Shown here in pieces: positions 53,802-64,000 of a DNA stretch of 64,000 nucleotides. The stretch spans positions 5,900,734 through 5,964,733 of the forward strand of contig CP136061.1 of the NCBI GenBank assembly GCA_032622095.1, given 5' to 3'. The stretch's first letter is position 1; the number at the start of each line of letters is the position of its first letter. Source of the stretch: Siphonodentalium dalli (Eukaryota; Mollusca; Scaphopoda; Gadilida; Siphonodentaliidae). The notes under the pieces were generated by a model that worked only from the letters and a program-made list of their open reading frames with translations, was not told the origin of the DNA and did not search any database. Both the position numbers and the translations under genes were made by a program.

Positions 53802-54544
53802 CGCTCCTCCCGCCGTCCTGCAAAAGCCAGATTTGGTTACTAAGGACGTACCACATACAGATACAGATACCCCTACTGCCAGCTAGTACTGGCCCTAGCG
53901 GAAACCCTGTTATTCTGCGGCGGGATTAATCAGGGACAATCAGGATTGTGTGCGCCGACACTAAAGTAGTATCATTTTGGCAGAATCTTGTGCCTGTGAG
54001 TCTATAATTTGGAATTTTGGCTGCAATTTAGTGCAATTATTAAATGCCATGCAGCATCAAGACAAAAGCCATCATGAGCATGGTCTGAATAATTTGTAGT
54101 TTGACTGAGATTACCTTGCTCCCTGACTTGACTCCTGCTCTTTGTTGTAATTGATAGTCAAAACTTTCACTTGCTTTCGGAAGAATAGAGATCCCTTTTC
54201 TAAATACTTTAAAGTTCTTCTAACTGGCGCAGCACCTTTCATAAAAGGCATCTTGACCTACCCATGTATCGAAAACTGGGTTCTAAAACGAAAGTAGATT
54301 GTTGTCGTAAAATCACAAAAGTGCGAGGAATCGTGTCAAATCAGCTTCAACTGTTACTTATAGTGACATACAATAAGTATTCATCTCTAAAAAACATTGA
54401 AAATATTACGTACGATTTGTTTATAGTAGCCACGTTAAAATGATTTGTTCGCGCAATATCCAAAATTACGACATTGCAGACGATTTTCAAGGGTGAAATT
54501 TTGAACTTCATTATCTTCAAAGGAAATGTGGTGGTTTCGCTGAA
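53802..54544. promoter_or_regulatory. Probable promoter/5' UTR region of the + strand gene at 54,545
   Basis: No repeat recognised between the LINE tail and the ATG. The last ~120 bp are moderately CpG-containing (gttcgcgcaatatcc, attacgacattgcagacg), which fits a 5' UTR. No TATA box is convincing. This is inferred from position only. Confidence 0.3.
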
Positions 54545-54638
54545 ATGCCGTCACAGTCAGATCGGTTTCGTGCAGCTGCTGTGGGAACAGCTGTTGCCTT
54601 TGGGTTAGCTGTGACTGCATATTTGTTTCTGAAGAAAA
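54545..54638 (+). CDS. Likely first coding exon of a membrane-anchored protein
   Basis: ATG followed by 31 codons and a strong donor (aaa|gtgagt at 54,639). The peptide MPSQSDRFRAAAVGTAVAFG + LAVTAYLFLKK has a basic N-terminus, a ~20-residue hydrophobic segment and a basic stop-transfer end. This is the form of an N-terminal anchor in mitochondrial outer membrane, peroxisome or ER. I cannot assign the gene. Its next exon is not in the window, because the downstream 9 kb is occupied by an antisense Gypsy element. Without splicing it would end at a TAG about 12 codons later. Confidence 0.55.
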
Positions 54639-54768
54639 GTGAGTTTACTTTTTATACCGGGTACCGGTAGTTTAAAACAATGAAATATGGAAAGTGCCAA
54701 TTTCAGTGCCAAATAATATAATTTTAATATTACGTCAGTGGAAACGGGCCAGCTCGCCCCAGTCGACC

Positions 54769-55104
54769 TGTGTCAGCTCGCCCGAGCCAACTGGCTCCTA
54801 GTGATAATGTCTTATTTAAGTTGTTGTGTTATCTTTTTGGGGTATGGCAAAGATAAGCTTATTTATATAAGGTTCTCACCTGTTTTACTCTCCTAGTCCT
54901 TCCAGCTATATACTTCCCTGGCGTGCTTTACCGATGGCGGTCCCGATTCAAGAGAGCGCACACTTCATTTTTAGCTCCGCCCTTCTCTCCCGTCTTTCTC
55001 CCTTATTACCCAATCACAGGCCAGTTAGAGTTCAAGGTGTCAAAGGTTACAGTTCATGGTTTCTTATGGGTCAGAGGTCATAGTTCATACTGACATATTC
55101 TACA
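54769..55104 (-). mobile_element. 3' LTR of the Ty3/Gypsy element (left boundary tentative)
   Basis: On the minus strand a purine tract is directly followed by TGTAGAATATGTCAG, the expected start of an LTR. A TATA-like element (gctatata on +, 54,905-54,912) lies inside, consistent with a U3 promoter. The other end is less certain; tgtgtcagctcgcc at 54,769 would give TG...CA termini and a ~336-bp LTR. The 5' LTR lies beyond the right edge, so neither LTR identity nor target duplication can be checked here. Confidence 0.65.
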
Positions 55105-55117
55105 CTCCTCCCCCTCC
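55105..55117 (-). other. Polypurine tract
   Basis: Minus strand ggagggggaggag abuts the LTR start TGTAG. This is the plus-strand DNA primer site expected between the last ORF and the 3' LTR. Confidence 0.8.
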
Positions 55118-55257
55118 AGTTCTTGCAGAATGCATTGTGAGGACTTCTGCTATCCTATCTGGTCTGCGACTGGGTGGTTATAAACAAATACATGTAGACA
55201 AATTCCGCTTTGTACAATCCCCTCAACAGGATGTCGCCGTTCCTCGTTGACACCATG

Positions 55258-55442
55258 CCATAGCTCAGCGTTCCTCGCTGTTCCCACATTGCAGCTCAGC
55301 GTTCCTCGCTGTTCCAATATTGTAGCTCAGCGTTCCTCGCTGTTCCCATATAGCAGCTCAGCGTTCCTCGCTGTTCCCATATAGCAGCTCAGCGTTCCTC
55401 GCTGTTCCCATATAGCAGCTCAGCGTTCCTCGCTGTTCCCAT
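55258..55442 (-). repeat. 31-bp minisatellite over the end of ORF3, ~6 copies
   Basis: The unit agctcagcgttcctcgctgt + tcccatatagc overlaps the last codons of the Tpt1-TatD ORF. The TatD-family C-terminal stretch (GTARNAELLYG) lies in the first copy, and the present stop codon (55,389) falls inside the next copies. The array has probably altered the protein's tail. Confidence 0.92.
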
Positions 55443-58073
55443 GCCAATGACTTCTTGGGTTTGACCCCTTATTTCCGCCACAGCAGCCACTACTTCGCCT
55501 ATATTCTTTGGGCTAGAAAATGCCCTGTTCCCTGCAAAGTACGGTCCATCCGTCTCTACCAGCAATCTTTCGTCCGGAACACTCCTCAAGGCCTCTTTCT
55601 GCTCTTCATCAAAATGTTTCACCAGCCCAGTAAACCCAAAATAACAATTTGGTAACTCCATCCATTCCCTCAGTACTTCAGATCTCTGTGAGCAACAATG
55701 GAGATGCAGTGGTTGGTTGACAAGCCTCATTCTCCTAATGATGTTCAATGCAATCCTTGCCACTCGATCTCCATACCTGCTGGCTCCTCTAAGGTGTAGA
55801 ATGATGGGCTTACTGGGCATGCTTAGTTTTAGGAGGTCTATGAACAGCCGTTCTTGTAAGTCGAATGAGGATGGGTGACTAGTATCATCCAGGCCAATCT
55901 CTCCCAAAGCACACACCGAACGATGGTTCAGATAATCTCTAATAAGATCCAGGGTGTGGCTTGAAGCCTGCCGATAGTTTTTCGGGTGAAACCCTATAGC
56001 CGTTCTCCACCTCTGACCAAGATCCACTGTCCAGGGGTAAGACTCCGGATCACAAAATACCGCAACCCCACCGATTACGCTACATGGGACCTTTCCGTCC
56101 GGAAATCCCTCAAAATATTGGTCCCAACAAAGGGTATCGGTGCCCTTGTTCGCTCGCTCCAGAATCCGATCCGGGTGGAAATGACTGTCATATAATTTGA
56201 GCAGTGGCTTTGGGGGAGGATCAGCGAGAGCGTCTTCACACTCCACCCAGGCCTCCAAACTGTCATCCTCCAGTTCTATCTCCAAAACCCCGCACTTCTC
56301 GGTCTCCATGGGGCAGGTCTGGAGTTCTCCCTGGGACTCTAAGAACATTTCTTCCTCTGGTGGAGACTTTGGTGTTGACTCTATACTGCTATCCTGACTG
56401 TCTGTGGCCCCAGCCTGGCTCAACCCGGTGAGGGGTCGAGTCAAAGTACTGGGCTCCTCAGGCACCCTCTCTTCGACTTGAGTCTTCCGATCCATCTCGG
56501 TTAGGGGACGGACCATAGAATAATCCTCCGTACTCACCAGTACCTCCTGGGTAGCAATCGTCTGGTCCCACCCGGTTAGCGGTAGGATCATAGGCGACTC
56601 TACATCTTCATTGGTGGAGCACTCCTGATCCAACCCGGTGAGGGGTCGAACCACAGAAGCACTTCTCCCATATACTCTGATCCAATGCTCCTCCCGTGAC
56701 AATCCATCTTCTCTATCTCTACAGCACTGTTTCAACTCATCCAATTTCTCCGGCTTAAGCATTTGAAGCAACACATAGAGAACCCTCCAATATAAAAAAC
56801 AAGCAGGGGAGTTAATAGGACTCAACCTACATTGTACAGTTTCCCCATCCTGAAAACATGGATCAGTGGACCGGCGCAGCCTATCTATGTAAAACTTGTA
56901 CATGTCTCCTGATATACTAGTATCGGGCGAAATCAGTCGGTCAGAATTAATCTTGTCGATCAAAGGTTTGAAGTGTTCTAAGGTCACCGCCTCAATAGGA
57001 ATCCTTTGAATAAATCCAACCAGTGTTTTTATTCCCTCTGCCATTTGTTGACATATTATCTCAGCCTGTTCAATTGAAACCGGTTCCCACAAAGTCTCTG
57101 GAACATGCGCATACAAGACATGTCGTTTCAATTGTGAAAACCTTCCCCTACATATCAAGCATAGAGTATTTCTGTTCTGCCTTAATCCTGCTTTCTTCAA
57201 ATTCTGTTTAAGACGCCACCTGCGATAACTTCTAAGGGTGGAAAACTTCTTTTCTGTCCTCGGCTGTGGAGTCGATGGTAATTCTCCCAGTCTGCTCCTC
57301 TCTTCATCCCTTCGAATTACATCTTTGAAAAAGGCTGGTGGTATCGTATGTTCCTCATCCCCTGCAGATAATATTACATTGTTAGCCGATCGAAATAATT
57401 TGAAGCCAGCCTGCAAATATTTATTTATATCCAAATATATTGCCACTTCACTTAGGGGCCTCATTCCACTAACCACAGTTTTATTTTCCGGTTCATGGGT
57501 GGAGAAGTGGATCATCTGTCTCCCCATGGTCTTAAGCCCTTCAACCTTAATTTTCGCCCAATTTTCCAATGACGTTCCATGCACCGCTTGTTCCAATTCT
57601 TCGCATGTTAAGATGGGTGTCAATTCTAGTTTCTCAACTGGTGTGGAGTGAGCTTGGTAAGCCTTGATCTCCATTAGTTCCATTAATCCTCTCTTTGATT
57701 GTCTTAATGCAAATCTGTTTTTTTCATTAGTATTTACTACCCGTGTGATGTCTTCTCTGGTCACCCCATGAAGAAATGGGTCCTTGAGCAAAATCTGTAC
57801 TTCCATATACCCTTCCTTATTTATTTTTGTGGTATGACGGAGCAAATACGACAAATGTCTCCCGATAGCTTCGTCATTTGGTTTCTTCCTACCTGGCCTA
57901 TCAGTCCTAAAATGGTGGACCGCAACAGGGTCTTCGCAAACTACTTGTTGAAGCGTGTTCTGAGAATCACGGTGGGATTGATTTAAATCTAGTGACTCAC
58001 TATGTCTTGATGGTGTCCAGTAATGTGATTTCCTTCTGTCCCTCTCATTCATTCTTAACTTCTTTGCTGACAT
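55389..58073 (-). CDS. Gypsy ORF3: Tpt1/KptA-like RNA 2'-phosphotransferase fused to TatD-like nuclease
   Basis: This intact 894-codon frame starts 43 bp after the pol stop, on the same strand. Residues ~66-255 are Tpt1/KptA-like. LSYLLRH (R79, H80) is followed by GYMEVQILL, NEKNRFAL, IKAYQAHS (H142), VHGTS (165-168) and GMRPLSEVAIYLD (R205), then NNVILSAG. Known Tpt1 enzymes use NAD+ to remove a 2'-phosphate from RNA; some also ADP-ribosylate nucleic-acid 5'-phosphate ends. A small finger (CLICRGRF...HVLYAH, ~305-323) and a linker with four RPLTG-type repeats (~475-553) follow. Residues ~626-892 are TatD: YDSHFHPDR, GEIGLD (E725), LHLRG (H760), LHLHCCS and VETDGPY (D842). Unusual: one Tpt1 catalytic arginine position is K137. 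It occupies the place of env, and no signal peptide or membrane segment is visible. Function in the element is unknown. Confidence 0.88.
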   Translation of the reverse strand: MSAKKLRMNERDRRKSHYWTPSRHSESLDLNQSHRDSQNTLQQVVCEDPVAVHHFRTDRPGRKKPNDEAIGRHLSYLLRHTTKINKEGYMEVQILLKDPFLHGVTREDITRVVNTNEKNRFALRQSKRGLMELMEIKAYQAHSTPVEKLELTPILTCEELEQAVHGTSLENWAKIKVEGLKTMGRQMIHFSTHEPENKTVVSGMRPLSEVAIYLDINKYLQAGFKLFRSANNVILSAGDEEHTIPPAFFKDVIRRDEERSRLGELPSTPQPRTEKKFSTLRSYRRWRLKQNLKKAGLRQNRNTLCLICRGRFSQLKRHVLYAHVPETLWEPVSIEQAEIICQQMAEGIKTLVGFIQRIPIEAVTLEHFKPLIDKINSDRLISPDTSISGDMYKFYIDRLRRSTDPCFQDGETVQCRLSPINSPACFLYWRVLYVLLQMLKPEKLDELKQCCRDREDGLSREEHWIRVYGRSASVVRPLTGLDQECSTNEDVESPMILPLTGWDQTIATQEVLVSTEDYSMVRPLTEMDRKTQVEERVPEEPSTLTRPLTGLSQAGATDSQDSSIESTPKSPPEEEMFLESQGELQTCPMETEKCGVLEIELEDDSLEAWVECEDALADPPPKPLLKLYDSHFHPDRILERANKGTDTLCWDQYFEGFPDGKVPCSVIGGVAVFCDPESYPWTVDLGQRWRTAIGFHPKNYRQASSHTLDLIRDYLNHRSVCALGEIGLDDTSHPSSFDLQERLFIDLLKLSMPSKPIILHLRGASRYGDRVARIALNIIRRMRLVNQPLHLHCCSQRSEVLREWMELPNCYFGFTGLVKHFDEEQKEALRSVPDERLLVETDGPYFAGNRAFSSPKNIGEVVAAVAEIRGQTQEVIGMGTARNAELLYGNSEER

Positions 58074-58097
58074 CTAAAAATTAGGAATAGACTTTGT
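58074..58097 (-). promoter_or_regulatory. Splice-acceptor-like sequence before ORF3
   Basis: Minus strand ctattcctaatttttag directly precedes the ATG. It has a pyrimidine/T-rich tract, a branch-point-like cctaat and a terminal AG. By analogy with retroviral env expression it could make a spliced subgenomic mRNA for ORF3. The matching donor would lie upstream, probably outside the window. Confidence 0.4.
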
Positions 58098-58116: not shown

Positions 58117-61100
58117 TTAATTACACTCAGGACAGACGTATTGTTTTAAAGCTCGTCCTTGTTTTGCAGTAACCTTAACGCACTCCCCATGATACCATTC
58201 CCTGCAGCTGTCACATTGGATCATGAATTTGCCATCGTCTATTTTATTGCACCAGCAGTACAGAATATCTGCAGAGGAAATAGAGGCTCTTTCCTCCCCT
58301 CTTTTAATGACGGCCCGTAGCCATTTTGGCAGTTCCTCATCTCGACACAACTTAAGTCGGTCATGATGGAGTGTTACTAAACCGGTCTTAAGTCTGACCT
58401 TAAAGGTGCTCTTAGAAAGTAACTGCATTATTACGCCCGGTCCCTTCCAGTTCACCGATAGTTTTTTATTTTTCCCCTTGATAACTGCTGTGTCGCGTAG
58501 GTAAACTATATCTCCCAACTTAAATGGTTTACAAAACATCCTGGCATCGTACTTTTTCTTCATTTGGACCTGAGACTGTTTTAGTTTATCTCTAGCAATC
58601 TCATGGGCGACCCTCATTGTATTTTCCAGTTCCAAAACAAACTCAGGTATATTTTCCATGCTTTTATGAGGGAAATTTGTGGGGTACATGAGGTCGACGG
58701 GTTTGGTTACCTCTCTGCCCAACATCAAACGATTCGGAGTGAAACCGGTTTGCCGACAAACCGATGATCGCAAAGCTCCAGCTATTTGGGGTAGGAAAAT
58801 GTCCCAACTTTTCTGTTTTTTGCCCACAAAGCAGCGCACCGCGTCCATTAAAGTTCTATTATATCTTTCGCATTGGCCATTAGCGGATGGTCTATATGGC
58901 GAGCATCGGAGCTTATCAATATTCAGTGCCTTACACATTTCCGCAAAAAGATCGCTCTCAAAGTTCCGCCCTTGGTCTGTCAAAATCCCAAATGGAAGAC
59001 CAAAGCGAGTAAAGAATTCATTTATCGCTGCCCGCGCCGTATCAATAGCTGTTTGAGAAGGTAATGGAATACATTCCACCCATTTGGTGAAAGAGTCAAC
59101 GATCATGAGGACATATTCATTTCCCTGTTCCGTCCTCGGTAATGGCCCCAAAAAGTCCATGTGCACGCGTTCCATAGGTGCCCCCATTTGAATTTGTTGA
59201 AGTGGAGTGCGAGGGTGCCGGCTTTGCTTTTTACAAACATTGCAAGTCTTGCAGGCTGCCACCCAGATCTCAACATCGTTATTTAGCCCAACCCAATAAC
59301 CAATTTCCTTGACCCGCTCTTTCGTTCTACTCATTCCTTGGTGTCCAGAAAGTGGAACATTGCGGCATAACTCAAATATTTCTTTTCTCATATTAAATGG
59401 AACCACTATAACTTTTCGCCCAGTCTTGCGGGTTCTATACAAAACATTATCATTATCAAGAACGCAAAGTTCCTTATTTAACCAATAATTTTTGGCAGCA
59501 GGGCTAGATATCAGTAAATCCCCTTCCGAAGGTTCCACAGTGTTGATTAGCCAATTCAAAATAAGTTTGAGATCTGGGTCAGCGTCTTGAGCTAGCTTAA
59601 TATCGTCCGATGAGTGCTTTTGAAATTCCACTAACTGGACCGATGGTTTATGTTCAGGACCTGACCCCTTTCCGGTGAGGGAAAGGGCCATAGGATCCTT
59701 GGTTTCTCTATTTATAGTCTCTCCACCCGGATCCCAGGTCTCGTGTAGGCCTAATGGAGTATTTGGGATCAAAGGCTGTGTAAGCAACTTATTGGGGACC
59801 TCTTTGTGAGGGTTAGTCAGGTTAGTTTGAGGAGAATCCATGGTTGGTGTTACTCCAGCTGAGGCCCAAAATAAATTTAAATCAAATTTAGCGCTTTGCT
59901 CCCTTTTTCCAATTCGTGAAATGGCAGACAGAGGTATTATGTCATTCACTTCTTCCTCAAATTTCTTTCTCTTCAACTCAACCCTTTTGCAGTAGGCACA
60001 TCCCCCACAAGGCAGCGATTCAATCCCAGTCTCTGCTTTACAATATTCGTCCCATGGGATCCTACTCAGCGCATCTGCATTCGAATGTTTTTCACCCTTC
60101 CGAAATACTATTTGCATGTTAAATTGACTTAATTCGAGGAGCCATCTAGCCAATTGGCCTTGGGGCTCCTTGAAATTCATCAACCACGTAAGACTGCTGT
60201 GGTCTGTACGGAGCGTAAAAGGTTTGCCCAATAAATAATGCTTGTATTGGCGAGTAAAACATACGACAGCTAAAAGTTCCTTACGTGTGGTGCAATAATT
60301 CCGCTGTTCCTTTGATAAAGCTAGACTCCCATAGCAAATAACTTTTTCTTGCCCATTTTGTATCTGAATTAATTCAGCCCCCATACACGTTTGTGAACAA
60401 TCGGTATCTAGCAGATATGGGTCGGTTTTATTCGGAAGGGCCAATACTGGTGGGCTCGTTAGAAGTTTCCGAAGGTTTTGCCAGGCAGATTCTTCAGAAT
60501 CTCCCCATGAAAAAGGTTTTTTCCTTATAGAATCGTATAACGGTTTGGCAAGTTCTGCAAAATCTTTAACAAAGTTACGGTGATAGTTAACTAACCCCAT
60601 AAACCGCTCCACTTCCTTCGCTGATCGTGGACGTGGCCAATCTTTGACTACTTGAGTCGCACTATCCCCCATTTCTAGCCCGTTTGCACTTATGACTCTT
60701 CCAAGGAATTGCACTTCTTTTTGGAACAGAAGACATTTCCGGGGTTTTAGTTTTAAGCCATATTCCCGAAACCTCAATAGGACTTCTTTTAAATTGTTTA
60801 TGTGCGAATCTACTCCCTGCCCCATAACCAAACAATCGTCTACGAATGCCAAAGTGGTCTTCCAGAGGAGCCCGCGCAACACAAGATTCATTGCCCGACA
60901 GTAACTAGCTACCGCGCCCGTCAGTCCAAAACTTAAGCGTTCAAACTCAAAAATCCCGTATTTAGTAATAAACGCAGTCTTAGGTTGGTCTTCCTCTCGG
61001 ATACGGAGCTGGTAATACGCCTGGTTGCAGTCCAATTTTGAAGCCCATTCGTTGTCAGCTAGTGCCGCAAGACAATCATCGACTAGCGGTAGGGGAAATT

Positions 61101-63180
61101 GATCTTTTTTGGTTACCGCGTTCAATTTTCGATAATCTAAGCACCACCGCACCGTATGATCGGGTTTACGGATAAGAACCGGGACTGAACACCACTCGGA
61201 CATAGAAGGTTTAATTATTCCGGCGCCCAAAAGTTTCTTCAAGTGCGACTCCTCCTCCCCCGCAAAGGCTTCCGGGGTCCTGCGCATTCTTAATTTAACG
61301 GGTGTTGCATCACCAGTAGGAATGGTGTGCTCTATAGCCGTAAAGTGCCCAAGATCATATTCGTGGGTAGCAAAAATGTCTTGGAATTCTATTAATAAGT
61401 CTTTTAATTTCAATTGTTCTGAATAATTCAAGTGTACTATTGACCTTTCAAAAAGTTGTGATAAATGAGGGGGCAATGTTGAGATATTTCCATTTTCCAC
61501 CACAGTTTCATTGACTCGTGGGTGATTATCGCAAATCCTTTCCGACGTCAGTGAACTAATCTCAGAAACATGAGAGATTTGACGGTTCTTCCTCAGCGTT
61601 ACCGAAGACCCGGTAGGATTTAAAATGCAACAAAGTATTTCAGTGGTCCCTTTACTGTGTAACGAACACCCCACAATTATTTTATCCCCTATAACTGGTT
61701 CTACTATAAAATCGTGGGCCATGGAATTTACTCTACAACCGACCAGCCTACCTGTACGAGGGGGAATCACACATTTATTGGAAATCATTACCGGTTGAAT
61801 CCTTTCTTCCGGTTTTTTATCATTCATCCTTTGGTTAGAAAACAAATAGGAACCTACGTGTACGTCACTCTCCCTCCCGGGGCCTGTACCGACTATCATA
61901 CTCTCGCCAAGTTGGTCCTCAGGCGGTAAGACCGGGAGATCAGAACTTGCAGTCATATTGTCACCAAGTTGGTCCTCCGGCGGCAAGGCCGGGAGCTCAA
62001 AACTTGCAGTCATATTCTCACCAAGTTGGTCCTCCGGCAGCAAAGCCGGAAGATCAAAACTTGCAGTCATACTCTCACCAAGTTGGTCCTCCGGCAGCAA
62101 AGCCGGAAGATCAAAACTTGCAGTCATACTCTCACCAAGTTGGTCCTCCGGCGGCAAGGCCGGGAGATCAAAACTTTCAGTCATACTTTTACCAAAAAGA
62201 TGAGGACACTTCCTATTGACTGTACCAATTCCCACCAGCCCAAATGTACACAAAGGACTACCACAAGATATAGGAATGAGTTCGTTATTGAGGCGGAGTT
62301 CATCATTTAAGAGGTCTAAGGTCATAAAATGTTTTTTCATGAAATCATAGCCTAAGAGCATTTGATCATAAATGGGTGCTACATAGAAATTTTCCTGAAA
62401 GATTTGGGCTCCCAATTTAATCTCTACTGGCCCTACATATAACCCTCCCATACCAGAATTCCTGGCGGCTAACTTTAAGTTCACATGATTTATAATTGGC
62501 GGTGTTATAGTAAAACCTTCAAAAATCTTATCGGAAATTATGGAGACTTCTGCGGCTGAATCTATTACCGATTCCACTTCCATACCATTTAGAAATACAT
62601 TCACCATCGCCAACGGTCTTTGAACCTTATGAATCCCAACTACCGGATCGGCTGGTAAAGAGTTGCTGAGAATGTTAGGTAGAGTTTTTCCCTCTAAATC
62701 TCCCAGCAACCCTTGACAGGCCTGGTCCCTTAAAAGTGTTTGGGCTGTGATAAAGTTTGAGACTGCCATCGAGTCCTTTAAACCATTGAGTACCAAACCC
62801 TCTTGCGCCGTAAACTCTGATGTTAAATCAATCAAAATTCCCTCCGGTACTGAAATAACCTCGGGTATTGTATCACTTGAGAAATTGATCAAATCGTCAG
62901 GTATTGATTTAACTATTGAATCCATTAAGTTGTCGGGTATTGGGTTAACTTTATTGGATACCCGGCTGATATTATTGAGAGGAAATGGCTCCCCTTTAAC
63001 GGACAATTCATTTACATGTACATCTGTGTAATCAATATTTACATTTATTAGCTCATTCTTACCAACTTCCTTGAGACCATCTACAAATGGAGCCGGAATC
63101 AGGCCTCTTGACCCGACTCTCTGAAGTTTGACATGCCCATTTTGTTTCCGGTTTCCGCATTTTCCGGAGGCGCTGAACGA
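58117..63180 (-). CDS. pol: Gypsy pol: protease, RT, RNase H, integrase, C-terminal PHD finger
   Basis: Open from 63,180 (after a TAA at 63,181-63,183) to the stop at 58,117, in the -1 frame relative to gag. Numbering from codon 63,006: protease ~135-235 (VIDSAAEVSII, active D149). A linker with five 19-residue repeats covers 274-368. RT is ~560-770 (DYRKLNAVT, LSFGLTGA, FVDD at 721-724). RNase H is ~865-985 (DTDCSQTCMGAEL, RKELLAVV, TDHSSLTWL, HSNADALSR). Integrase is ~1205-1440: zinc region with GHQG and CKTCNVC, catalytic D1284, D1344 and E1380, an exact D,D35E spacing. A GPLPR/SPYRPSANGQCER core is present. The first His of the zinc region appears to be replaced (CRNVPLSGH). A C4HC3 PHD finger (1583-1628) ends the protein. 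All frames are intact, so the copy is young. Confidence 0.93.
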   Translation of the reverse strand, partial: SFSASGKCGNRKQNGHVKLQRVGSRGLIPAPFVDGLKEVGKNELINVNIDYTDVHVNELSVKGEPFPLNNISRVSNKVNPIPDNLMDSIVKSIPDDLINFSSDTIPEVISVPEGILIDLTSEFTAQEGLVLNGLKDSMAVSNFITAQTLLRDQACQGLLGDLEGKTLPNILSNSLPADPVVGIHKVQRPLAMVNVFLNGMEVESVIDSAAEVSIISDKIFEGFTITPPIINHVNLKLAARNSGMGGLYVGPVEIKLGAQIFQENFYVAPIYDQMLLGYDFMKKHFMTLDLLNDELRLNNELIPISCGSPLCTFGLVGIGTVNRKCPHLFGKSMTESFDLPALPPEDQLGESMTASFDLPALLPEDQLGESMTASFDLPALLPEDQLGENMTASFELPALPPEDQLGDNMTASSDLPVLPPEDQLGESMIVGTGPGRESDVHVGSYLFSNQRMNDKKPEERIQPVMISNKCVIPPRTGRLVGCRVNSMAHDFIVEPVIGDKIIVGCSLHSKGTTEILCCILNPTGSSVTLRKNRQISHVSEISSLTSERICDNHPRVNETVVENGNISTLPPHLSQLFERSIVHLNYSEQLKLKDLLIEFQDIFATHEYDLGHFTAIEHTIPTGDATPVKLRMRRTPEAFAGEEESHLKKLLGAGIIKPSMSEWCSVPVLIRKPDHTVRWCLDYRKLNAVTKKDQFPLPLVDDCLAALADNEWASKLDCNQAYYQLRIREEDQPKTAFITKYGIFEFERLSFGLTGAVASYCRAMNLVLRGLLWKTTLAFVDDCLVMGQGVDSHINNLKEVLLRFREYGLKLKPRKCLLFQKEVQFLGRVISANGLEMGDSATQVVKDWPRPRSAKEVERFMGLVNYHRNFVKDFAELAKPLYDSIRKKPFSWGDSEESAWQNLRKLLTSPPVLALPNKTDPYLLDTDCSQTCMGAELIQIQNGQEKVICYGSLALSKEQRNYCTTRKELLAVVCFTRQYKHYLLGKPFTLRTDHSSLTWLMNFKEPQGQLARWLLELSQFNMQIVFRKGEKHSNADALSRIPWDEYCKAETGIESLPCGGCAYCKRVELKRKKFEEEVNDIIPLSAISRIGKREQSAKFDLNLFWASAGVTPTMDSPQTNLTNPHKEVPNKLLTQPLIPNTPLGLHETWDPGGETINRETKDPMALSLTGKGSGPEHKPSVQLVEFQKHSSDDIKLAQDADPDLKLILNWLINTVEPSEGDLLISSPAAKNYWLNKELCVLDNDNVLYRTRKTGRKVIVVPFNMRKEIFELCRNVPLSGHQGMSRTKERVKEIGYWVGLNNDVEIWVAACKTCNVCKKQSRHPRTPLQQIQMGAPMERVHMDFLGPLPRTEQGNEYVLMIVDSFTKWVECIPLPSQTAIDTARAAINEFFTRFGLPFGILTDQGRNFESDLFAEMCKALNIDKLRCSPYRPSANGQCERYNRTLMDAVRCFVGKKQKSWDIFLPQIAGALRSSVCRQTGFTPNRLMLGREVTKPVDLMYPTNFPHKSMENIPEFVLELENTMRVAHEIARDKLKQSQVQMKKKYDARMFCKPFKLGDIVYLRDTAVIKGKNKKLSVNWKGPGVIMQLLSKSTFKVRLKTGLVTLHHDRLKLCRDEELPKWLRAVIKRGEERASISSADILYCWCNKIDDGKFMIQCDSCREWYHGECVKVTAKQGRALKQYVCPECN
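61903..62187 (-). repeat. 57-bp (19-residue) tandem repeat inside pol, 5 copies
   Basis: Encodes five copies of SMTASFDLPALLPEDQLGE with small changes, between protease and RT. All three forward frames on the opposite strand stay open across it, which is a shadow of the in-frame period. Confidence 0.95.
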
Positions 63181-64000
63181 TTAAAGGGCTTGCCACTGGG
63201 ACAATTTCGAGCGTAATGGCCCCTACCCCCACAAGAAAAACAGGTAAACCTCCCTCCATTTTCCTTACTAAACCGGTTAGGCCTCTGATCATTTCCGCGC
63301 CCCCTTCCACGACCTACTCCGGGTTGAAGGTTAGATATTTGACGCATCAAAACTCCGTAGCCATCCTCAGTATTGGAGGCTTGCGACTTAACTTCTACTC
63401 TCGATACTCCCGGAGAATATTCACTTTCAAATGCCCCAACACTTCGTACTTCCCTTTTTCTTCCCAGGGCTTGAGTGGCTTGAATGTATTTCACCTTTTT
63501 TACTGCATCTTCTATGTTTGGTAGTTGGAGCCCGTTGGTATAATCCCCAGAATTCCGATCATAAAGCCCTTGACAAAATCTGGCCACAGCTTGTCCCATT
63601 ATAATATTTTCCGGTGACCCTTTCCATACTTTAGAAGCCTTCATAAGAACCCGATCCGCCCACTCCTGTAGGAGTTCATCTCTATTTTGGGTCATACTCA
63701 AGAATTGGGCGCTTAGAGTTTCGGGCGGTTGTTGGGCCCCATAATGAACCACCAATTTGTCCATCACGGCTTGGAAACCCAAATCCGGATGATTTTCGGA
63801 AAGAAAAGCGTAGTAGTCAAGAACCTTTCCCTCCAAGCTTAAACATAAGGCCGTTAATTTCTCAACTGCAGTCAATTGATGTAAAACAGCGAAGCTTTCA
63901 AACTTAGCCCGAAAACCTTCAAAGCTATTGCGGCCATCAAATTTCAATCCATGAGGGAGATTAGGAAACTTATGTCTTCGATCCCTTTCCTGAACATGGT
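63099..64000 (-). CDS. gag: Gypsy gag (N-terminus beyond the window edge)
   Basis: The frame is open without a stop from the right edge to TGA at 63,099, so ~300 codons are visible and the start is outside. The first visible residues include RRHKFPNLPHG, and the frame continues LKFDGRNSFEGFRAKFESFA. The helical capsid-like region ends in an R/G-rich stretch (GVGRGRGRGNDQR). Next comes one zinc knuckle CFSCGGRGHYARNCP (C-x2-C-x4-H-x4-C) that packages RNA in this family. It overlaps the open pol frame by ~82 bp. Confidence 0.9.
   Translation of the reverse strand, partial: HVQERDRRHKFPNLPHGLKFDGRNSFEGFRAKFESFAVLHQLTAVEKLTALCLSLEGKVLDYYAFLSENHPDLGFQAVMDKLVVHYGAQQPPETLSAQFLSMTQNRDELLQEWADRVLMKASKVWKGSPENIIMGQAVARFCQGLYDRNSGDYTNGLQLPNIEDAVKKVKYIQATQALGRKREVRSVGAFESEYSPGVSRVEVKSQASNTEDGYGVLMRQISNLQPGVGRGRGRGNDQRPNRFSKENGGRFTCFSCGGRGHYARNCPSGKPFNRSAPPENAETGNKMGMSNFRESGQEA

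Follow-up and report, generated by a model that had tools for sequence, protein, structure and literature searches.

The window is a 64,000-nucleotide stretch of DNA from Siphonodentalium dalli. On its minus strand, and continuing past its right edge, lies a 12,307-bp full-length Ty3/Gypsy-type LTR retrotransposon with open gag and pol, whose third frame (ORF3) is predicted to encode a Tpt1/KptA - zinc finger - TatD protein with the checked catalytic residues in place. The features are as follows, in window numbering; A is the family of the window's own element and B is a second, related family.

54821..54824, minus: target-site duplication ACAA, 4 bp, flanking the paired LTRs
54825..55104, minus: 3' LTR, 280 bp, TG...CA, 279/280 identical to the 5' LTR
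55105..55117, minus: polypurine tract, 13 nt, GGAGGGGGAGGAG, directly before the 3' LTR
55389..58073, minus: ORF3, 894 aa, predicted KptA - zinc finger/helical module - linker - TatD, with an LTR pair around it in each tested copy
55407..56201, minus: predicted TatD nuclease domain, metal ligands H631 H633 E725 H760 H792 D842 present
56229..56663, minus: linker with a repeated RPLTGL-like motif (four in A; three RPVKGL-like in B)
56664..57176, minus: zinc-finger plus helical module, residues 300-470, common to KptA-less relatives
57105..57161, minus: C2H2-type zinc finger C305/C308/H318/H323; C, C, H, H invariant in 10/10 aligned rows
57360..57875, minus: predicted Tpt1/KptA domain, residues 67-238, with R79 H80 R120 R185 and H165/T167 present
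58074..58091, minus: splice-acceptor-like sequence TTCCTAATTTTTAG, its final AG abutting the ORF3 ATG
58117..63180, minus: pol open frame (PR, RT, RNase H, IN, PHD)
58123..58257, minus: PHD finger at the pol C-terminus, nearest to the CXXC1/BPTF/DIDO1 fingers
58888..59403, minus: integrase, H2C2 plus catalytic core, Pfam profile match
60700..61173, minus: reverse transcriptase domain, Pfam profile match
63099..64000, minus: gag, 3' part, with CCHC knuckle; the frame continues beyond the window edge
66852-67131 (outside the window; bases to its right were added), minus: 5' LTR, 280 bp

The gag frame has its first ATG at 66134, outside the window, and totals 1011 aa; pol follows in the -1 frame relative to gag with an overlap of 82 nt. 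A Pfam profile search put the pol domains in the order protease-RT-RNase H-integrase, then the PHD finger, with a weak protease match (E 3.5e-4, under the Pfam cut-off), and a structure search returned Ty3 as the top PDB match and closest solved structure. The sequence TTGGCGACGAGAATA comes after the 5' LTR, at the candidate position of a tRNA primer-binding site. The paired LTRs with TG...CA ends, the target-site duplication and the pol order make this a Ty3/Gypsy-type LTR retrotransposon, and with its near-identical LTRs it looks recently active.

The original prediction was of a Gypsy element with an intact 894-codon Tpt1-TatD fusion in the env position, on the same strand as pol and shortly before the polypurine tract, and this anatomy bears it out. 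ORF3 runs intact from ATG to stop (58073..55389), starts 43 nt past the pol stop, and ends 271 nt before the 13-nt purine run and 284 nt before the 3' LTR. Shuffling the bases of 24 kb of the region 300 times (three frames, one strand) gave a longest open frame of at most 198 codons, with a mean of 125; together with the Pfam matches below, this rules out a chance frame or artefact. By a simple rule, set once this site had been seen, the element strand contains 3 such sites across 8,900 nt, one of them the acceptor-like sequence before the ORF3 ATG; in family B, ...CTAATATCCTTGTATGATCATTCCAG stands nine bases ahead of the ATG and fails the same rule. LTR-retrotransposon ORF3s are typically expressed from spliced messages (excerpts of PMC5408684), and this one is probably also made from a spliced subgenomic RNA, for which the acceptor is weak evidence.

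Motifs of both enzymes had been read in the frame by eye, and the profile search agrees: ORF3 matches PTS_2-RNA at residues 67-238 (E 3.7e-44, 151.3 bits against a gathering score of 26) and TatD_DNase at residues 667-889 (E 1.1e-35, 123.8 bits against 27). These two were the only Pfam families found in ORF3 at E up to 1; DEDDy and GDSL were absent. The KptA motifs are R79-H80, H165-G-T167 and G-M-R205, and the Arg-His-Arg-Arg tetrad defined in PMC6333775 (R79 H80 R120 R185), with the HGT residues H165 and T167, is complete in family A and the same in B. The KptA stretch RANQGHS, frequent in relatives, is KAYQAHS in family A. The TatD metal ligands (H631-x-H633, E725, H760, H792, D842) are invariant in the alignment with relatives, and the VIA list holds mostly TatD and other amidohydrolase-like chains. 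Foldseek found no match for the zinc-finger/helical module alone at E up to 0.001.

These residues bear on whether the captured gene is kept for a role other than catalysis, such as binding, particle structure or env replacement. Such a role would suit the zinc finger and the long, predictedly disordered linker (pLDDT <50 across most of it), and the enzymatic ORF3s of bdelloids have been considered as a possible substitute for env (excerpts of PMC5408684). Against it, deeply conserved columns are kept (9/10 in KptA, 23/27 in TatD) where overall agreement is only 41% and 30%. By hydropathy, the family A ORF3 has no 19-residue window above 1.6 (maximum 1.14), so nothing resembling a membrane span that would help in env replacement, and a retroviral or insect-retrovirus envelope reading was rejected on this measure; family B has one window above 1.6 (1.74), inside the KptA domain. 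A non-enzymatic role therefore seems decidedly improbable.

ORF3 was used as a query against the 2.23-Gb genome (9 contigs) to search for other copies. At least 68 ORF3 matches were found; copy counts are lower bounds because 51 of 645 candidates were scored. A full-length, stop-free frame was present in 6/15 family-A loci examined: the window, C4:52.0M, and a subfamily of 950-974 codons at C5:107M, C3:149M, C5:155M and C8:95M, in whose member L128 the added length is a duplicated linker piece. The remaining 9/15 had stops, frame breaks or deletions. ORF3 lies inside a near-identical LTR pair in 10/10 family-A copies tested, window included; in the nine others, picked from the best matches, the LTRs are 99.3-100% identical, and 8/9 have identical four-base flanks (at C4:52.0M the duplication is GTGA, after a 3-base shift was corrected by eye). 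ORF3 has thus moved as part of the element. A single-copy host gene lying next to pol by chance, which the original prediction had named among its risks, is ruled out, since the gene is multicopy and LTR-bounded in the tested copies. As to ORF3 being a regular part of the element, the claim stands for every ORF3-bearing copy tested; the query being ORF3 itself, the count covers ORF3-bearing elements only.

The same genome holds family B, seven matches of near-equal score with about 36-37% identity over ORF3 residues 58-889. Its copies are 96-99.9% identical to L115, six with frames of 1465-1492 codons and one of 1031. The L115 ORF3 (1,486 aa; KptA E 1.4e-47, TatD E 4.3e-36) starts about 50 nt past the end of the pol match, in a 15,709-bp element with 508-bp LTRs. 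B pol is 61% identical to the window pol across the last 438 residues, PHD region included. An LTR pair surrounds ORF3 in 2/2 B copies tested (99.8 and 100% identical), with a four-base flank duplication, TAAT, at C5:85M. Families A and B agree at 47% in KptA, 30% in the zinc-finger/helical part, 26% in the linker and 44% in TatD, and 18 checked residues are identical between them. The predicted KptA - zinc finger - TatD fusion is common to two diverged families. The B N-terminal region includes a short stretch with weak similarity to P0008, a KptA-less relative (E 0.003). Two further loci were seen: D (C5:201.67M), which is broken, has KptA, finger and TatD pieces and no gag/pol match within 7 kb upstream, and C (C7:123.46M) is a fourth related locus, nested with D in the TatD tree.

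The dN/dS of ORF3 was estimated across copies by Nei-Gojobori with Fisher p. Between the window and L098, L128, L129 and L130, which form one subfamily and are not independent comparisons, it was 0.31-0.36 (p 8.5e-5 to 1.8e-6). By part, in the same comparisons, it was 0.11-0.27 for KptA (p 0.0012 to 0.12), 0.23-0.29 for TatD (p 0.031 to 0.083), 0.31-0.37 for the zinc-finger/helical part (p 0.0055 to 0.018) and 0.52-0.56 for the linker (p 0.16 to 0.19). Against L092 the whole frame gave 0.35 (p 0.01). It was not low against the near copy L131 (0.56, p 0.18), and was 1.02 against L095 (3 synonymous changes, 11 not). Among B copies it was 0.32-0.79, with no p <0.05. For pol the values were 0.12 against L106 and 0.10 against L108, and 0.21 (p 0.025) for its integrase-PHD part. 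The family A ORF3 is under purifying selection, and the comparison with pol indicates a weaker constraint on it than on pol overall. That ORF3 is a recent passenger host gene with no function for the element would fit the many broken copies, with full-length stop-free frames in a minority of the family-A loci; dN/dS below 1 makes it very improbable indeed, as does the occurrence of the fusion at the same place in two families that share about 61% identity at the pol end and about 37% in ORF3.

Three protein searches, limited by shared words and to 0.55-1.75x query length, returned 4, 9 and 8 rows, none with both PF01885 and PF01026. The TatD query led to P0006-P0011, which lack KptA and combine TatD with the finger and module seen in ORF3, the W-R pair of the module being invariant; P0010 is one such protein from Haliotis cracherodii. 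P0005 has TatD and no clear finger. In the TatD tree, A, B, C and D form one group (99/96) inside a ZnF-TatD clade with P0005-P0010 (100/97), adjoining P0011-P0013. The TatD half is thus in a ZnF-TatD clade beside animal proteins, P0012 and P0013, which we take to be TATDN2-like from their architecture, the tree holding no sequence named TATDN2. A bacterial origin of the domains was rejected: the ORF3 KptA groups with eukaryotic Tpt1 (99/99), and its TatD with a set including animal proteins (100/99, in a tree that took 16 of 80 listed bacterial loci). Those 80 matches, from a genome-contig search, carry bacterial record titles, and no family member was recognised among the matches listed. In viral contigs no relative was found with ORF3 or P0001 as queries; searching them with alignment A2 gave 5 loci. 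KptA occurs in 52 of 50,697 phage records and 9 of 72,556 plasmid records.

The KptA query returned two ENA contig proteins of LTR-type pol. P0019 is a 1,337-aa pol in the order RT, RNase H, KptA, integrase; P0001 likewise has KptA ahead of integrase and aligns colinearly with P0019 through KptA and integrase at 27.5%. Both keep the tetrad, and position 205 is P in P0019. KptA is therefore found in two arrangements, inside an LTR-type pol and in ORF3, from which we infer two captures. In the KptA tree A and B group at 96/89 and the pol-embedded pair at 90/89; an AU test did not reject one common origin for the KptA of ORF3 and that within pol (p 0.435). In the simplest history, a retroelement ORF3 with finger and TatD would have acquired KptA ahead of the divergence of A, B and D, locus C would have lost it, and KptA would have entered the pol of another lineage separately or by exchange. 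The zinc-finger module, the PHD finger ending pol, family B, the pol-embedded KptA, R120 and R185 of the tetrad and the 5' LTR all go beyond the original prediction.

With middling confidence, we are led to suspect that ORF3 is a non-envelope accessory enzyme which may process the element's RNA or RNA/DNA, its activity and substrate being read from sequence. The Tpt1 half would use NAD+ to clear the 2'-phosphates that remain once element RNA has been cut and repaired; the TatD half, like human TATDN2, would trim or cut RNA, including RNA in RNA/DNA hybrids; the zinc-finger/helical module would hold nucleic acid or the particle. Together the two enzymes would keep the genomic RNA and its hybrid fit for reverse transcription. 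Human TATDN2 resolves R-loops and acts on RNA as both an exo- and an endonuclease (excerpts of PMC12709183). Animals have CNP, CLP1, RLIG1 and Trpt1, a possible yeast-like ligation path; PMC13247085 states that evidence for the complete path at work in metazoan cells is lacking, and describes RNA ligation as able to help LINE-1. Together with the work on TRPT1, this literature makes RNA maintenance during reverse transcription the likeliest reading, and end-capping against decay or piRNA the boldest alternative. Several observations count against RNA maintenance: the KAYQAHS stretch, the near-copy dN/dS, the absence of significance in B, the weaker constraint relative to pol, the weak splice acceptor, whose rule B fails, the statement of PMC13247085 on the metazoan path, and Tpt1 loss, which has no phenotype in mouse or E. 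coli (PMC6333775).

In the end-capping alternative, which we consider unlikely, the Tpt1 half would put ADP-ribose on the 5'-monophosphate ends of cleaved element RNA, making them unusable by 5'-3' decay and by the piRNA machinery, which need a 5'-phosphate, and TatD would clear the leftover pieces. Purifying selection on ORF3 is in keeping with this, and human TRPT1 does cap 5'-monophosphate RNA with ADP-ribose, giving a product resistant to XRN1; the capped mRNA, however, is not translated (both from excerpts of PMC9458441). The link to Piwi proteins is conjectural, and P0019, with its KptA embedded in pol, points to a role inside the particle instead.

A role on cDNA seems quite doubtful: KptA would ADP-ribosylate 5'-phosphate DNA ends and TatD would trim 3' ends, protecting linear cDNA or preparing it for integration. 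Integrase needs free 3' ends, which speaks against this role. In its favour, the fold search lists PDB entries of TkoKptA with 5'-ADP-ribosylated DNA, and E. coli TatD works on ssDNA and RNA (excerpts of PMC12709183).

Returning to RNA processing, a broader proposal, tentative and on the unlikely side, is that LTR elements have taken up Tpt1 repeatedly as a module, on two occasions or more: once into pol, where it separates RNase H from integrase, and once into ORF3, where it accompanies a ZnF-TatD nuclease. It would edit the ends of the element's own RNA, by removing 2'-phosphates or by capping 5'-phosphate ends with ADP-ribose, so that cleaved transcripts evade decay or piRNA processing and stay reverse-transcribable. 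If true, this would be a retrotransposon-encoded, NAD+-dependent RNA-repair or counter-silencing system. The enzyme pair would link NAD+-dependent RNA end chemistry to reverse transcription and would point to damaged or processed transposon RNA as a possible substrate of animal Tpt1, the purpose of which is unclear. Since the LTRs of ORF3 copies are identical or nearly so, the element looks recently active and offers a setting in which to study the pair.

Among known systems, Ty3 has the same PR-RT-RH-IN order and LTR and PPT anatomy; here a PHD finger is added to pol, along with an enzymatic ORF3. The KptA half shares the fold, tetrad and HGT motif of the RNA 2'-phosphotransferase Tpt1/KptA/TRPT1 and differs in its predicted fusion to a nuclease and its carriage by a retroelement. 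Animal TATDN2-like nucleases have the same C-terminal TatD behind a long N-terminal region and are the nearest outside group in the tree, whereas the ORF3 TatD falls in the separate ZnF-TatD clade (100/97). KptA has been reported in jumbo phages, sawfly nucleopolyhedroviruses, Bodo saltans virus and two RNA viruses; in the latter, Beihai picorna-like virus and Botrylloides leachii nidovirus, it is likewise embedded in animal RNA-based agents, in polyproteins of positive-strand viruses rather than in an LTR element (excerpts of PMC9503650). 'TatD', 'retrotranspos' and 'LTR' have 0 occurrences in the main text of PMC9503650. In keeping with the original prediction, no LTR element with KptA or TatD, alone or paired, was found in the literature searched (PMC, partial texts, with most subscription journals outside its scope). 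The closest parallel is the Juno/Vesta LTR retrotransposons of bdelloid rotifers, as described in excerpts of PMC5408684. They too have an enzymatic, non-envelope ORF3 behind pol that retains its active-site residues (DEDD being DEED there), one type being related to 3'-end-processing exonucleases; in Adineta sp. 11 two enzyme types are joined in one ORF3, as here, and one enzyme type was gained at least twice. The enzymes there are a DEDDy exonuclease and a GDSL esterase rather than Tpt1 and TatD. The bdelloid ORF3 was not found to depart significantly from neutrality, while the comparisons between subfamilies here give a dN/dS clearly below 1. Enzymatic third frames of LTR elements are thus already known from bdelloid rotifers, and the element of S. 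dalli presents a predicted Tpt1-TatD pair that is under purifying selection and occurs in diverged families.

The C-terminus of pol in this Ty3/Gypsy-type element carries a PHD finger, and the position of the insertion relative to neighboring genes can be read alongside it.

58123-58257, (-): PHD finger at the C-terminus of pol; nearest fingers are those of CXXC1, BPTF and DIDO1
54251-54825: interval from the element edge to the start codon of mS25 (MRPS25)

The CXXC1, BPTF and DIDO1 PHD fingers are H3K4me3 readers. The element lies 574 nt away from the start codon in the first exon of mS25 and 280 nt beyond the ATG (54545) of a probable divergent small gene, perhaps inside that gene's first intron. 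The insertion is promoter-proximal, as would be expected if the PHD finger of pol directs integration.

Repeats occur within the element and elsewhere in the window.

56229-56663, (-): linker repeats of ORF3, the KptA-TatD fusion frame; RPLTGL-like motif four times in the window element's family (A), RPVKGL-like three times in the diverged second family (B)
61896-62195: pol, 57-bp repeats that keep the reading frame, located between the protease and RT domains; repeat unit close to SMTASFDLPALLPEDQLGE
55207-55454: 31-bp tandem repeat spanning the ORF3 stop codon
44355-46271: 77-bp unit repeated in tandem, with numerous identical copies

The linker repeat is a possible binding motif.

A KptA-less relative in the same genome, L123 (locus C), belongs to one TatD group with A, B and the broken locus D.

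G000:C7:123456400-123461400: L123, open frame of 1,483 codons

The L123 frame has two zinc-finger/helical units and no KptA, and its TatD ligand motifs are altered (HFR, GDIGID). No gag/pol match was found in the 7 kb before the frame or the 4.7 kb after it, and a comparison of the two flanks showed nothing in common beyond short repeats of 73-75% identity and still shorter matches. These sequence features make L123 a candidate domesticated gene.

TATDN2 is marked among the non-Hox genes of the giant squid Hox cluster in a figure legend (PMC6962438); at a guess, it may be ORF3 of a related element. A ZnF-TatD protein recorded under a Sedimenticola MAG (P0007) is probably, again as a guess, contamination from an animal host.

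KptA also occurs within LTR-type pol in two ENA proteins, P0001 and P0019; in P0019, whose cluster has 11 members, it is placed between RNase H and integrase.
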